Positions 3,556 to 11,055 of a stretch of 64,000 nt of DNA are shown in pieces. Each line of letters opens with the position of its first letter. Positions within the stretch are counted from its first letter, which is position 1. Position numbers and translations under genes: made by a program. The stretch is from an uncultured Thalassolituus sp. (GTDB lineage Bacteria > Pseudomonadota > Gammaproteobacteria > Pseudomonadales > Oceanobacteraceae). The stretch lies in contig NZ_CATMFB010000002.1 in the NCBI RefSeq assembly GCF_950066645.1, positions 248,001 to 312,000 on the forward strand. The letters are read 5' to 3'. Under the pieces are notes generated by a model, which was given only the letters and a program-made list of their open reading frames with translations, was not told where the DNA came from and did not search any database.

Positions 3556-5197
<1,642 letters not shown>

Positions 5198-5199
5198 CG

Positions 5200-6150
5200 T
5201 CAGGACACCAGACTCAAGCCATTGCCCAATGAGGCACGTGCCAATGCTTCGTGACCCCGCTCCATCAGACTGTCAGGCGAGTCTGCAGCCTGACGGACAG
5301 CAATCCCGACATCCAGACGCAACGGTATCCGCGCGCCGTCACCCGCCGCCCGGAAACTGAAATGCTCAACAGCCTGCTGCAGCTCGGATGCAATCGTAAA
5401 AGCAGTAGCCGGGGTCGTTTCCGGCAACAGAACGACCATACGGTCGCGGGCAAACCGACAGAGCATGTCCTGCTGCCGCAGATTCAACAGCAGCAACTCT
5501 CCTGTCTCTCTCAACATTTTCTCTGCCTCCCGGTCACCGTGGCGTCGCTCAAAATCTGCAAATCCTCTGAGCTCAGTCATTAGCAGGGCCTGGTACTGGC
5601 CCGGCCTGTGCCAATCGCGCCTCAGAGACGCCCGGACCTGATCGGCAAGAGAGACCTGCCCTAAACCGTCGAGCCAGAGATGCTCACGGAAACACTGCTC
5701 ACGTTTCTGCAACTGCATCCGGATACTTAACTGTTCTTTATGCCAGTGCCATACCCCGTATGTCAGCAGTCCCAGTCCAAGAGGCATAAGTATCGATTCG
5801 ATCATGCTTTCCCAGTACTGTCCGGCAGCCAGCCTGAAAAACTCATCCAGCGCGTCCTGCCACATCGCCAGAAACATAAACCCCAGACCCATAGTCAGCA
5901 GATTAGTGACCCTGCCCGCTGGGCGACTACGCAGGATCATCAGGAGCCAGACTCCCAGAGCCAGTGCCGTTGAACCCTCCCCGATAACATCCAGCCAGTC
6001 GATATCCGCTATTGGCTTCGTGTTGCCCAGGCAGGCGGACAATATCACAACGATTAACGCCAGGAGGGAAAGTAAAAGAAGCTTATGTATATGGAGTGAG
6101 AGAAGTGAAGTCATCAGAGTTTTCCAGGGAATACCTGACTCAATCATCAC
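5200..6150 (-). CDS. Membrane protein with degenerate GGDEF domain, RxxD site retained
   Basis: Four hydrophobic segments occupy roughly residues 22-42, 58-75, 84-105 and 115-135. A short linker leads into a GGDEF fold (about 180-316). The signature five residues are ARDRM (234-238) in place of GGDEF, and the upstream metal/substrate residues are also not conserved, so diguanylate cyclase activity is unlikely. RQQD (225-228) sits five residues before the signature, where the inhibitory c-di-GMP-binding RxxD site lies in active enzymes. This suggests a c-di-GMP receptor, by inference. The start is uncertain: GTG 6150, ATG 6147 or ATG 6114 are all in frame. The gene is first in an operon with the AraC regulator. 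Confidence 0.8.
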   Translation of the reverse strand: MMIESGIPWKTLMTSLLSLHIHKLLLLSLLALIVVILSACLGNTKPIADIDWLDVIGEGSTALALGVWLLMILRSRPAGRVTNLLTMGLGFMFLAMWQDALDEFFRLAAGQYWESMIESILMPLGLGLLTYGVWHWHKEQLSIRMQLQKREQCFREHLWLDGLGQVSLADQVRASLRRDWHRPGQYQALLMTELRGFADFERRHGDREAEKMLRETGELLLLNLRQQDMLCRFARDRMVVLLPETTPATAFTIASELQQAVEHFSFRAAGDGARIPLRLDVGIAVRQAADSPDSLMERGHEALARASLGNGLSLVS

Positions 6151-6340
6151 AAAATTTTATGACAGCTGTTCGGGGGTCATATCAGCTCAGGTAAACAACA
6201 AAAAGAGAGGAACATTTCCATAGCCGCGACCTTAACAGGCGCTATAACAGCGATTTCCAGTGCTTCCTTACCAGTCATCCAGGCTCAGAATTCCGATTGC
6301 GGGGGGCTGGAGTGCCTGAAATCCGCAGATCTGATTTCGG

Positions 6341-6358
6341 CTGTCACATAAACGTCAC
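6341..6358 (+). promoter_or_regulatory. Candidate Pho box (PhoB operator) with spaced -10
   Basis: CTGTCAC-ATAA-ACGTCAC is two 7-bp direct repeats around a 4-bp AT-rich spacer, the layout of PhoB-binding Pho boxes. Exactly 10 bp further on lies TACTTT (6369-6374), the position of the -10 box in Pho promoters where PhoB replaces the -35 contact. It is 58 bp upstream of the TonB-dependent receptor ATG. Control by phosphate starvation fits the downstream phytase. The match is by eye and the call is an inference. Confidence 0.7.
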
Positions 6359-6415
6359 AGGCCGTTTCTACTTTCTTCGCCCATCCAGTTACTCACCGCA
6401 TTTGAGGAAAACCCT

Positions 6416-9142
6416 ATGAATTTTCGCAGCACGCCACTGGTTGCCGCTATTAGCCTGCTCAGTGCAGGTCAGGTATTAGCCGATGGGCAGATCGCTGGTC
6501 GGGTAAGCACCACCAGCGAACAATCACTGAACGGTATGACCGTGAAGCTCGAACGGACAGGACAGCAGGTCCTGACCCAGGATGGCGGTCGCTTCCGTTT
6601 TAACCAGGTCGCACCGGGAGTCTATTCCCTGATCTTATCCCAGGGTGGCAGAGTCATCGCCACTGAAGAGGTCTCGGTCGTTGACGATGAGGTCACACGG
6701 GTGCGTATGGAGCTGGATGAGTCATCTTCCGCCGATGACGAGATCCTTGTGATCGGACAGGCCGCCCAGCTGCAGCGGGCACTGGACCGTGAGCGCTTTG
6801 CAGACAATTCGATCTCCGCGGTGGATGCAGATGCCATTGGTCAGCTCCCAGACGCCAACGCCGCAGAGGCACTGCAGAGGGTGCCGGGCCTGTCGATTGA
6901 ACGGGATCAGGGGGAAGGCCGTTTTGTCCGCATCAGGGGAATCGGTGCAGAACTCAACGCAGTCACTGTCAACGGCACACAGGTACCTGCCCCGGAAGCA
7001 GGCAGTCGCGCAGTCGCACTGGACGTGATTCCTGCTGCTCTTCTCAGCTCACTGACGGTGACCAAAACCCTGACACCCGATATGGATGCTAACGCTATTG
7101 GCGGTGCAGTCGACATCCGCAGTATTTCCGCCCTTGATCATGACGAGGGGTTTGTCTCGGCAGACGCAGAGGCGGCCTATGATAAACAGTCAGAACAGAC
7201 CAACCCATCCCTGTCAGTCTCTGGAGGAAAAGCATTCGAGCTGAGCCAGGATCAGCGCCTGGGCGTCGCCCTCGCATTGAGCTGGGAAAATCGTGACTTC
7301 GGCTCTGATAACGTCGAAACGGGCGGTGCCTGGGACCTCGAAGAAAGTCCGGCGTTGCTGGAAGAAGTCGAAATGCGGGAATACAGCATCAATCGTCAGC
7401 GTTCTGGTGCCGCTCTCAATCTCGAATACGAAATTAACCGCGATCATAAGCTCTGGCTGAATAACCTCTACAGCCGTTTCGCCGACGACGAACAGCGACA
7501 GGCCATCGTCGTTGAGTTTGAAGACGCAATTTCCAGTGGCGAGACAGGCAGCGGTGACGTCGCCCGTGAACTCAAAGACCGAAAAGAAACGCAGACGATT
7601 ATGTCCAGCACCTTTGGCGGAAAGCATGTCACTGACGACTGGACAATTACGTACCAGATCGGTGTCAGTAAAGCGGAAGAGGACGAACCTGACAGCATCG
7701 CCGGCGCTGTCTTTGAAGGCACTGACAGCCTGAACGATCTCAGTTTCTCCAGCAGTCGACGACCTGTCGTCAGCGGCCCTGCAGCCTTCTACGACACCGA
7801 TGGTTTTGAGCTTGCCGAGATTGAGGCTGGCCGGAGCCACACTCAGGATATTCAGCGTCAGGCTCAGCTGGATATCAGCCGGGATTTTCTTCTCGGTGAG
7901 AAGTTTGCAACCTTGAAAGCGGGCGCAAAAACCAGCCGCAGGCACAAATCACAGGACGCAGACGTCTGGGTCTACGAGGACTTCGGTGATGCACCACTCA
8001 GTCTCAGTGACTACCGGGGGGCCACACGAGACTATTCACTGGGCCGTTTCGGGCCGGGCATTCACGCCGGAGCCATACGCGACCTCATGGCCGGCCTGAA
8101 CAGTGACGAGGCCTTTGACGAGGAAGAATCTGCACTGGCTGACTACCGTATCCAGGAAAACATCAGCGCCACCTACCTGATGGGGACAATGGATATTACT
8201 CATCAACTCCATATGATCGCCGGAGTCCGACATGAAAAGACGGAAACAGATCTGGCCGGTAACGCACTCAACAGCGATGACGAACTTATCCGGACCGAGC
8301 GTGAAAATGACTATAGCCACACCCTCCCAGCCCTTCTCGCACGCTGGGACCTGAACAACACCACTGAGGTCCGGGCTGCCTGGACTCACGCAGTTGTCAG
8401 ACCAACCTTTGAGCAGATGAGCCCCAATTTTGTTGATGACGGCGCCGAAGCGGAAATGGGCAATCCAGATCTTAAACCTCTGGAATCAGCGAATCTTGAT
8501 CTCAGCGTCGCTCACTATCTGGGCGATGCCAGTGTGTTATCGGCGGCACTTTTTCATAAATCGATCGATCACTTTGTTTACGAAACCGATATTGCCGGCT
8601 CTGCAGACTACAGTGATTATGACGAAGTCATTACTTTCCGAAACGGTGACAACGCCAGACTGAGCGGAATTGAACTGGCGATCGCCCACCGCTTCAGCCA
8701 TCTTCCCGCACCGTTTAATGGTCTGTTGATTAATGCAAATGCGACCTTCACTGAGAGCGATGCAACCATCAGCGGCTACATAGACGGTGAAGTCGCCGAA
8801 CGTGATATTCCTCTGCCTGATCAATCAGATGTTTCCGGTAACTTCATCGTAGGTTATGAAAACGAACGCTTCTCCATCCGCCTGGCAACCAACTACAAAT
8901 CAGAGTATCTGGCCGAGGTAAACAGTCTCGAAACCAGCGATGCCGATGTCTGGCAAAGCAGTCAGACCCAGGTCGATTTCAACGCCGCATATCAGGCTGA
9001 CAAGGATCTGAAGATAACCTTCGGGATCGCAAATCTTACCGACGAATCCTATTACAGCTATCAGAAGACGGGGCGCTACAACGCTCAGTACGAAGACTAC
9101 GGTCCGACCTACAGCCTCGGTATCCGTTACACCAATTTCTGA
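6416..9142 (+). CDS. TonB-dependent outer-membrane receptor paired with phytase
   Basis: The 908-aa protein has a signal peptide ending near residue 22 (QVLA-DG), a small carboxypeptidase-regulatory-like beta domain (about 25-100), a TonB-box-like stretch DEILVIGQ (108-115), a plug domain, and a beta-barrel ending in a C-terminal Phe as expected for outer-membrane proteins. The plug block RVPGLSIERDQGEGRFVRIR is typical of the TIGR01782 type of receptors known from Xanthomonas and Caulobacter. The ribosome binding site GAGGAAAA is good. The phytase gene follows after 50 bp, so the likely cargo is phytate, a lower inositol phosphate or a metal complex of these. Substrate is inferred from context. 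Confidence 0.92.
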   Translation: MNFRSTPLVAAISLLSAGQVLADGQIAGRVSTTSEQSLNGMTVKLERTGQQVLTQDGGRFRFNQVAPGVYSLILSQGGRVIATEEVSVVDDEVTRVRMELDESSSADDEILVIGQAAQLQRALDRERFADNSISAVDADAIGQLPDANAAEALQRVPGLSIERDQGEGRFVRIRGIGAELNAVTVNGTQVPAPEAGSRAVALDVIPAALLSSLTVTKTLTPDMDANAIGGAVDIRSISALDHDEGFVSADAEAAYDKQSEQTNPSLSVSGGKAFELSQDQRLGVALALSWENRDFGSDNVETGGAWDLEESPALLEEVEMREYSINRQRSGAALNLEYEINRDHKLWLNNLYSRFADDEQRQAIVVEFEDAISSGETGSGDVARELKDRKETQTIMSSTFGGKHVTDDWTITYQIGVSKAEEDEPDSIAGAVFEGTDSLNDLSFSSSRRPVVSGPAAFYDTDGFELAEIEAGRSHTQDIQRQAQLDISRDFLLGEKFATLKAGAKTSRRHKSQDADVWVYEDFGDAPLSLSDYRGATRDYSLGRFGPGIHAGAIRDLMAGLNSDEAFDEEESALADYRIQENISATYLMGTMDITHQLHMIAGVRHEKTETDLAGNALNSDDELIRTERENDYSHTLPALLARWDLNNTTEVRAAWTHAVVRPTFEQMSPNFVDDGAEAEMGNPDLKPLESANLDLSVAHYLGDASVLSAALFHKSIDHFVYETDIAGSADYSDYDEVITFRNGDNARLSGIELAIAHRFSHLPAPFNGLLINANATFTESDATISGYIDGEVAERDIPLPDQSDVSGNFIVGYENERFSIRLATNYKSEYLAEVNSLETSDADVWQSSQTQVDFNAAYQADKDLKITFGIANLTDESYYSYQKTGRYNAQYEDYGPTYSLGIRYTNF

Positions 9143-9192
9143 TCACGACCGGGCCGGCACGACAGCCGGCCCTGACAAACGCAGGAAACTGA

Positions 9193-11055
9193 ATGAATAT
9201 CCGATCCATAGCACTGACATTACCGCTCGCCTTGATGACCAGTGGATGTGCCCAGAATTCAAACGACATTGCCAGTAAAGAACTCCCGCTGAATCCAGTT
9301 GCCGCGGGGCACGAAGCTGGCTGGGCTGTTGATAACGGCTGGCTGACACTGTCTCCCGATCACGGCCCGGTACTCAATGGCCAGGCTCTCACGACCTCCC
9401 TCCGGACTGAGTATGGAGATCTGCGCGGAGAATTTTTCGCCACCTTTGATGGCGCCAGCGACCGCATTGTGCTGATTCAACTCCGCCAGCAAAAGGCGTA
9501 TTACAGCGGTCCGCTGTCATTCGCACCTGAGGGCTTGTGCCTCTACCAACCCGTGAATGAAGGCCTGCAGCTATTTGTACTCGGTGATGATCATCTCGCC
9601 CGCCATTACCTAATCACCCCCGAACACCCGGCTCTGCTGACCGAAATCCGCAGCTTCCCACTTCCGCCTGACGCTGAATACTGCACCACCAGCGACCGGC
9701 TGCAGCAGCTCTTCGTCAATGAGGAAACTATGGGGATCTGGAGTTATCCGGCCAATGCAGAGAAACCGTATGAGCGGAGTGCTGTGGCACTCAGCGCACC
9801 TTTCGGGAATCTGCCCGGGAAAGCCGGGGGGCTGGCCATTCGCCAGAATCTGCTTGTCGCTACAGGCGCGGGAGAGCCCTGGCTGGCCACTTACGATCTG
9901 AGTAGCGGTCTCCCATCCCAGAGCGAAGTATTTTCCCTTCCTGCTGATGTTCAGCCGGAAGGACTGAGCCTGGCGCAGGAATCCGGATCTCCACTGGTAA
10001 CGGTATACGATGAACACAGTGGGCAGCTTCTCAGTACGATATTGCCCGGGCCAGTGTTCAGCAATCACCCGCCTGCAGTAGAGCAGGTTCCAACTGTCGT
10101 GGCGCAGCGCGAAACCGACAGCGTCCGTTCACCCGGCGATGCTGCAGACGACCCTGCGATATGGCTGAACCACCAGATGCCAGAAGCCTCGCGCATCCTC
10201 GGAACGAATAAGCAATGGGGTCTGGAAGTGTACAACCTGCAGGGCGAGCGTCTGCAGGCCATCGGTAAGGGCCGCCTGAACAATGTCGATCTGCGTTATG
10301 GCGTGAACCTCAAGGGCAACACCGTGGACATCGCAGCCGCCAGCCACAGAGACCTCAAAGCCATCAGCCTGTTTGCCATTGACCCAGCCAGCGGCAGTCT
10401 CAGCTGGATCAACGATGTCCCCACGACACTCGATGATGTGTATGGCTTGTGCATGGCGCAACACGAAGATGCAACCTACGTATTTATCAACGACCAGGAT
10501 GGCCGCTACGAGCAATACCGGATACTTACGGATGGTGAGTACTGGCATGGAAAACTCGTCCGTGCCTTCCGCCTGCCATCTCAACCGGAGGGCTGCGTCG
10601 CCAATGATCAGACTGGCGTACTGTTCATGGGCGAGGAGGCTGCTGGTATCTGGAGAACGACCGTCAGCCCCGATAAGGCTCAGACGCCCGAACTGGTCAT
10701 ACCCGTATCTGAGCATCTGGTCGCCGATGTAGAAGGCCTGGCGCTCTACCAGACTGCCCATGACTCTGTTCTGGTTGTGTCCAGTCAGGGCAACGACAGC
10801 TACACGCTGTTTGAAGGAGATACACCGTACCGTTTCCTGGGAAGGTTCCGGGTCGGTATGAACACTGAGAAACAGCTCGACGGAGCCTCAGAAACCGACG
10901 GTCTGGAGGTAACTTCTGCCCGTCTTGGCAGTGACTTCCCAGAGGGTATGCTGGTCGTTCAGGATGGGCGCAACCGTATGCCCACCAGCAATCAGAACTT
11001 CAAACTGATCAGTTGGAGTGACATCCGCACCGCCCTGTCACTTACCAGTGACTGA
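9193..11055 (+). CDS. Tandem beta-propeller phytase, lipoprotein
   Basis: Beta-propeller phytases hydrolyse phytate (inositol hexakisphosphate) with calcium in the active site. The C-terminal half (about 300-615) is a full propeller domain: DDPAIWLN, RILGTNKQWGLEVYNLQGE, FINDQDGRYEQYRI, VADVEGLALY, ASETDGLEV and MLVVQDGRN are family landmarks. The N-terminal half (about 40-290) repeats the same pattern in weaker form (EGLCLYQ, FVNEETMGIWSYP, VQPEGLSLAQ, TVYDEHSG), so this is a dual-domain enzyme with an incomplete first propeller. The signal ends in SGC (Cys19), an acceptable but not ideal lipobox. It forms a unit with the preceding receptor. Its end overlaps the convergent moeB by 18 bp. Confidence 0.9.
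   Translation: MNIRSIALTLPLALMTSGCAQNSNDIASKELPLNPVAAGHEAGWAVDNGWLTLSPDHGPVLNGQALTTSLRTEYGDLRGEFFATFDGASDRIVLIQLRQQKAYYSGPLSFAPEGLCLYQPVNEGLQLFVLGDDHLARHYLITPEHPALLTEIRSFPLPPDAEYCTTSDRLQQLFVNEETMGIWSYPANAEKPYERSAVALSAPFGNLPGKAGGLAIRQNLLVATGAGEPWLATYDLSSGLPSQSEVFSLPADVQPEGLSLAQESGSPLVTVYDEHSGQLLSTILPGPVFSNHPPAVEQVPTVVAQRETDSVRSPGDAADDPAIWLNHQMPEASRILGTNKQWGLEVYNLQGERLQAIGKGRLNNVDLRYGVNLKGNTVDIAAASHRDLKAISLFAIDPASGSLSWINDVPTTLDDVYGLCMAQHEDATYVFINDQDGRYEQYRILTDGEYWHGKLVRAFRLPSQPEGCVANDQTGVLFMGEEAAGIWRTTVSPDKAQTPELVIPVSEHLVADVEGLALYQTAHDSVLVVSSQGNDSYTLFEGDTPYRFLGRFRVGMNTEKQLDGASETDGLEVTSARLGSDFPEGMLVVQDGRNRMPTSNQNFKLISWSDIRTALSLTSD

Follow-up and report, generated by a model that had tools for sequence, protein, structure and literature searches.

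Genes of the phytase locus and their products

We analysed a 64-kb stretch of Thalassolituus DNA (the window), in which four genes are arranged divergently around a shared control region. On the forward strand, the gene for a TonB-dependent receptor of 908 residues (6416-9142) is followed by the gene for a β-propeller phytase of 620 residues (9193-11055), whose open reading frame begins 50 bp past the receptor stop codon. The reverse strand carries the genes for a membrane protein with an apparently inactive GGDEF domain (5200-6114) and for an AraC-family regulator of 375 residues (4070-5197). The frame of the GGDEF protein is open to 6150, and its start at 6114 was inferred from aligned homologues. 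The AraC regulator contains an N-terminal PF12625 domain and an HTH_18 helix-turn-helix domain (PF12833), and its profile matches include 5chh.

The receptor was recognized as an open reading frame with matches to PF00593, PF07715 and TIGR01782, and the profile search identified both the plug and the barrel domain. Models for siderophore and heme receptors also match, all of them below their cut-offs, and phytate is a strong metal chelator. Both points would be in keeping with a receptor whose cargo is not an inositol phosphate but iron or a different metal bound to phytate, with the phytase stripping off the chelator. The best-matching receptor model, TonB-Xanth-Caul, and the Pho box in the promoter (see below) speak against such a cargo, which we consider quite unlikely. 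This alternative concerns the cargo alone and can be reconciled with the mode of control proposed below.

For the phytase, the PF02333 domain (E = 1.1e-83) and the β-propeller fold were both recognized by profile search, alignment and structure prediction. The predicted structure comprises an N-terminal β-strand domain (residues ~42-283) and the catalytic propeller (301-612), the latter being ~37% identical to the Bacillus β-propeller phytases 1poo and 3amr. Compared to these enzymes, the window phytase additionally possesses the N-terminal domain and a lipobox-like TSGC sequence. Of 30 aligned homologues, 21 conform to a loose lipobox pattern, and the phytase is probably a lipoprotein as judged from its sequence. 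As seen by eye, the acidic and basic positions aligned with 1poo, among them putative phosphate- and calcium-binding residues, are mostly kept. A further difference is the lysine of the TGKEG motif of 1poo, which is retained in many Pseudomonas-type homologues, is replaced by glutamine in the window phytase and is glutamine or glutamate in several of its close relatives.

Between the receptor and phytase genes, a GC-rich hairpin (9151-9172, +) with an 8-bp stem and no T run on its 3' side was found, and the 50-base intergenic gap folds at -22.3 kcal/mol. This hairpin may set the ratio of receptor to phytase products. In a relative of the same genus (L034), the receptor frame is broken, the open frame comprising 500 codons compared to homology over ~800.

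Of 390 genomes of the order that were searched, 88 contain the phytase. We compared 76 of the 87 phytase loci outside the window's own genome, first 60 and later 16. Within the first 60, the receptor gene is located directly upstream of the phytase gene in 55 (with a weak match in two, L064 and L075); in the other five, it lies downstream in four and was not found in one. Receptor-phytase neighbourhoods, as well as Pho boxes, are known kinds of arrangement. In the accessible part of a report on Citromicrobium bathyomarinum JL354, a phytase gene likewise adjoins a TonB-dependent receptor gene (PMC3400609); neither a divergent AraC/GGDEF pair nor a promoter analysis is mentioned in that part.

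A conserved Pho box in the control region

The control region harbors a Pho box (CTGTCAC ATAA ACGTCAC, 6341-6358, +) and, exactly 10 bp past it, the -10 element TACTTT (6369-6374, +). The positions given by the initial annotation for these elements, the receptor gene and the phytase gene 50 bp further on were all reproduced. PhoB-activated promoters of the E. coli phoA/pstS type contain two 7-bp repeats placed 11 bp apart and a -10 element at a distance of 10 bp, and the promoter in the window shares this layout of direct repeats and spacing.

By a loose consensus alone (up to three mismatches), the Pho box is no rarer than chance, as the window contains seven matches versus 6.6 expected. When TAnnnT is required at 10 bp, the site at 6341 is the sole one scoring at least 12/14 in the 64-kb window, compared to four boxes of this score without the -10 requirement. 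In the window's own genome, the composite pattern of box and -10 element yielded 19 matches with up to two mismatches, versus six for a control pattern, and the window site is among the six matches with a single mismatch. Composite sites precede phoB, two PstS-like genes (PF12849), a gene for a GNAT acyltransferase (PF13444) and a DUF3450 gene, and one more precedes a receptor gene recognized by eye. The genome encodes PhoB itself, the phoB gene scoring over its profile cut-off, and the same type of site stands before the phytase unit, phoB and PstS-like genes. Of 17 other sites examined, leaving out the window site (L185) and one that overlaps L183 (L187), 11 are located outside and six inside open reading frames of at least 80 residues. 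The sites L183, L184 and L187 lie together in one region (G000:C2:218526-223308), where Pho-type sites precede the DUF3450 gene and a TonB-dependent receptor gene ~5 kb apart; this region is possibly a phosphate-controlled TonB system.

We regard the Pho box as more than a chance match because it is conserved among relatives, a check that the initial annotation had proposed for regions upstream of orthologous receptor-phytase pairs. Our first set consisted of 55 upstream regions (54 loci and the window; L073, L085-L088 and L091 were excluded because of a contig edge or another gene order), 48 of which contain a Pho box with -10 element at P ≤ 0.02, as judged from 100 Markov shuffles each. For the second set, named genomes were scanned with an alignment of the GGDEF protein; a scan with the window phytase alone as query retrieved no relative. 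The alignment gave 266 relatives, of which 80 loci were kept, from Thalassolituus, Oceanobacter, Oleispira, Alcanivorax, Cellvibrio, Halopseudomonas, Stutzerimonas, Pseudomonas and others. Removing three loci without a receptor match, ten already seen and five near-duplicates left 62 non-redundant loci, which lie outside the discovery set, share ancestry and include many from Pseudomonas.

In all 62 loci, TAnnnT occurs exactly 10 bp past the best Pho box, the box having been chosen regardless of the -10 element. Among spacings of 2 to 21 bp, only 3 and 21 occur besides 10, once each; in one locus (L118), the box picked may be in the wrong register. The information content amounts to 1.52 and 1.35 bits per base for the two half-boxes and 1.45 for the -10 element, versus 0.38 for the 10-bp gap between box and -10 element. 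On the opposite strand, facing the GGDEF-AraC operon, a Pho box of at least 12/14 is found in 36/62 loci compared to ~0.2/62 in shuffles of the region. The corresponding site in the window (6148-6165, -) is weaker than in these relatives, scoring 9/14 with only its first half being good.

A second motif and the divergent regulator pair

Upstream of the Pho box we identified a further motif, M2 (GGGTCAnATCAGCTCA), whose consensus was derived from relatives of the window. Its half-sites are 10 bp apart, the spacing expected for one AraC-type monomer reaching over two major grooves. The window carries a perfect distal copy (GGGTCATATCAGCTCA, 15/15) at 6174-6189 (+) and a degenerate M2-like site (9/15) at 6272-6287 (+), 69 bp before the Pho box. 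The latter was named by its position, which is that seen in relatives, as its score is no better than that of a chance match at 6314. M2 was found at P ≤ 0.02 in 38/55 regions of the first set (again 100 Markov shuffles each). In the second set, it scores at least 12/15 on the coding strand in 62/62 loci, compared to 4/62 on the other strand and 0.8/62 in shuffles. Taking the best copy within 20-125 bp, which scores just 10/15 in five loci, the distance to the Pho box is 69-70 bp in 42 loci, 58-59 bp in nine, 79-80 bp in four, 41-42 bp in five, and 92 bp and 30 bp in one each. Moreover, the DNA separating M2 from the Pho box shows, by eye, A/T-rich positions with a period of ~10-11 bp, and such phasing may bend it. 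Compared to promoters of the E. coli phoA/pstS type, the phytase promoter thus adds M2, mostly ~70 bp upstream and tied to the neighbouring AraC gene.

This tie became apparent in the first set, where 36 of 41 loci with an AraC gene contain M2, versus one of 13 without the gene (Fisher p = 2e-7, a value inflated by shared ancestry). It also holds within family f16, in which four AraC-bearing loci (L065, L071, L072, L084) have M2 and nine loci lacking the AraC gene (L074-L080, L082, L090) do not. Locus L057 has the AraC gene and keeps M2 while no GGDEF gene was detected, which suggests that M2 is read by the AraC protein. Five loci (L055, L060, L061, L064, L068) possess the AraC gene and no significant M2, three of which (L055, L061, L068) show a weak copy located 59-70 bp upstream of the box.

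Alternatively, a protein different from the AraC regulator could read M2, or M2 could represent a variant PhoB site, with the AraC gene acting elsewhere. L054, which has M2 and no AraC gene in its stretch, and L064, with its AraC gene and no M2, would agree with another reader, and the sequence GTCA occurs in M2 as it does in the Pho half-site. However, M2 tracks the AraC gene, also inside a single family, its half-sites repeat at 10 bp instead of 11, and the window's own genome contains a single exact copy (6174-6189), unlike the Pho site. We thus consider this alternative very unlikely, and the half-site spacing makes it unlikely that M2 is a second Pho box. M2 was also discarded as a genome-wide site, given its single exact copy and the five copies with two mismatches, four of which are inside open reading frames of at least 80 residues.

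The second member of the divergent pair, the GGDEF protein, reads ARDRM at its GGDEF site, where most homologues have AGDRF. Among 110 homologues (near-duplicates included), the fourth residue is arginine in 108, serine in one and lysine in one, so that the catalytic glutamate of GG(D/E)EF is kept in 0/110. An active cyclase was consequently rejected. In the accessible part of a study of VCA0965, in which the first glycine of GGDEF is likewise alanine, an AGDEF cyclase was active and an AGDAF variant inactive (PMC3974145). VCA0965 thus retains the glutamate and activity, in contrast to the proteins described here, which for this reason are very probably not cyclases, as far as can be told from their sequences. 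The RxxD motif is kept in 109/110 homologues, including the window protein, and the combination of a lost active site and a kept RxxD is that of a degenerate GGDEF receptor at the level of sequence. Since many active cyclases likewise contain RxxD, its retention is no proof of c-di-GMP binding. The membrane half contains many invariant positions in the alignment, and the 50 matches listed in a structure comparison were GGDEF proteins, which gave no lead on the membrane half. By analogy, the protein may be compared to PelD, for which c-di-GMP binding through a fold like the cyclase inhibitory site was proposed, according to the part of the paper available (PMC2170427). Both may serve as c-di-GMP receptors through such a fold; the protein of the phytase unit differs in its membrane half and in having an AraC regulator as partner rather than a polysaccharide machine.

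The occurrence of the GGDEF protein follows that of the phytase. At E-values up to 1e-45, it was found in 52/390 genomes of the order, in 52/52 of them on the same contig as the phytase gene, divergent from it and 0.8-4.2 kb apart, and in none of the 302 genomes without phytase (0/302). Conversely, 36/88 phytase genomes have no match at this threshold, two of which (G213, G233) carry a weaker-scoring copy. Allowing for a third, from a distant class, that may also carry one, at least 33/88 phytase genomes are without a detected GGDEF protein, and phytase control without this protein therefore exists. An AraC homologue accompanies the GGDEF protein in 80/80 loci of the named genomes. All four genes are present in 72/80; the other eight have no phytase match, three of those also no receptor, and in each of the eight the contig ends close by.

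The receptor is the more variable member of the unit. In five loci (L200-L204), the AraC and GGDEF genes are directly divergent from the phytase gene and no receptor was found in the stretch. In nine more (L205-L213), the receptor is only distant, the matched piece being 25-33% identical, and the phytase matches mainly over its catalytic domain. L214 and L215 have neither the regulator pair nor the receptor. Across the 14 loci with the pair, TAnnnT lies 10 bp past the best box in 12, while in L200 and L213 it stands at 10 bp after a weaker box. M2 is located 59-79 bp upstream in 13 of the 14, and no clear copy is near the box of L201. The constant part is therefore the phytase with its control region and not the receptor, and viewing the receptor as the partner of the phytase, as the initial annotation did, was too narrow.

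Proposed control of the phytase unit by two inputs

We propose that the four genes form a unit for the use of phytate (inositol hexakisphosphate), in which PhoB and a dedicated AraC regulator act as a two-input gate on the shared divergent control region. We hold this reading to be moderately probable. It starts from the gene order, the conservation and spacing of the sites, the association of M2 with the AraC gene and the loss of catalytic residues; from these we infer the binding events, the two-input logic, the signal sensed and a joint action of the AraC and GGDEF proteins. When phosphate is scarce, active PhoB would bind the Pho box, which would replace the -35 element of the receptor-phytase promoter. 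The AraC regulator encoded by the divergent gene would bind M2 ~70 bp upstream and would also be required, so that transcription would depend on two inputs. The GGDEF protein, an inner-membrane protein whose domain is dead and whose RxxD is kept, might be a receptor for c-di-GMP or for a signal reaching its membrane half, and might control the state of the AraC regulator. The products would be an outer-membrane receptor and a phytase, the latter probably as a lipoprotein.

Only tentatively, and with more doubt than confidence, we extend this proposal to a general switch. Here, the dead membrane GGDEF protein would be the receptor for c-di-GMP or a phytate signal in an AraC switch dedicated to the phytase alone, making expression dependent on PhoB and a second signal in Pseudomonas and marine relatives. 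The promoter would be the conserved feature of this switch, also in genomes whose receptor gene is distant or missing. An input through c-di-GMP would be plausible by analogy, since low phosphate lowers c-di-GMP through RapA in P. fluorescens Pf0-1, according to the accessible part of PMC3032545.

Some phytase or receptor-phytase loci (L074-L083, L089, L090) have neither the regulator pair nor M2. Within this natural comparison group, the Pho box with a -10 element at 10 bp is kept in L077, L079, L089 and L090.

A simpler explanation would be a plain Pho-regulon operon, in which PhoB alone drives the receptor and phytase genes while M2 and the divergent genes serve, for instance, the divergent operon only. 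The strong, conserved Pho box with its correct -10 spacing would be expected from such an operon, and L077, L079 and L090 show that the box and -10 element can stand without the regulator pair. Against this, the distances between M2 and the Pho box on the receptor side follow a helical spacing, and the regulator pair was never found apart from the phytase. Furthermore, the accessible part of PMC5082522 reports no evidence that PhoBR regulates phytase upon phosphate depletion in P. fluorescens SBW25 or P. stutzeri DSM4166. Taken together, we consider control by PhoB alone unlikely.

The same study put forward phytate as the only signal to which Pseudomonas phytases respond, outside the PHO regulon, and in the part available left open why they seem to be so placed. 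The two-input gate would fit its observations, provided that SBW25 and DSM4166 carry the cluster. If they do, the conserved Pho box argues from sequence for a role of PhoB in Pseudomonas phytase control, together with a second input. As a further point in favor of the gate, provided that the strain carries the cluster, a phytase gene of P. syringae pv. phaseolicola was up 3.2-fold with bean leaf extract, while a value for apoplastic fluid is not listed in the accessible part of the data (PMC2803797). The initial annotation had interpreted the locus as a response to phosphate limitation. This part stands insofar as the Pho box is conserved and shared with phoB and PstS-like genes; given M2, the AraC/GGDEF pair and the accessible text of PMC5082522, phosphate limitation is probably not the sole input.

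Phytate is a major organic phosphorus store in some soils, as stated in the available part of PMC5082522. A promoter with a Pho box, a phytase-specific site and a named regulator pair makes the question of PHO-regulon membership testable by reporters. Such a two-site promoter could explain why relatives apparently do not make phytase on phosphate hunger alone, and a whole family of inactive GGDEF proteins gains a likely partner and output. Among titles and the beginnings of abstracts, with few subscription papers covered, we found no description of the regulator pair, M2 or the two-input control. The consulted parts of PMC9403785, PMC9414882 and PMC6355987 contain nothing on the cluster, and the terms phytate and PhoB are absent from PMC1790865.

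Finally, the control region contains an open frame (6163-6353, +) with a signal-peptide-like stretch, 62 codons before its stop and no in-frame ATG, GTG or TTG start. It resembled a leader peptide and was set aside because the two M2 copies and the Pho box lie within its bounds.
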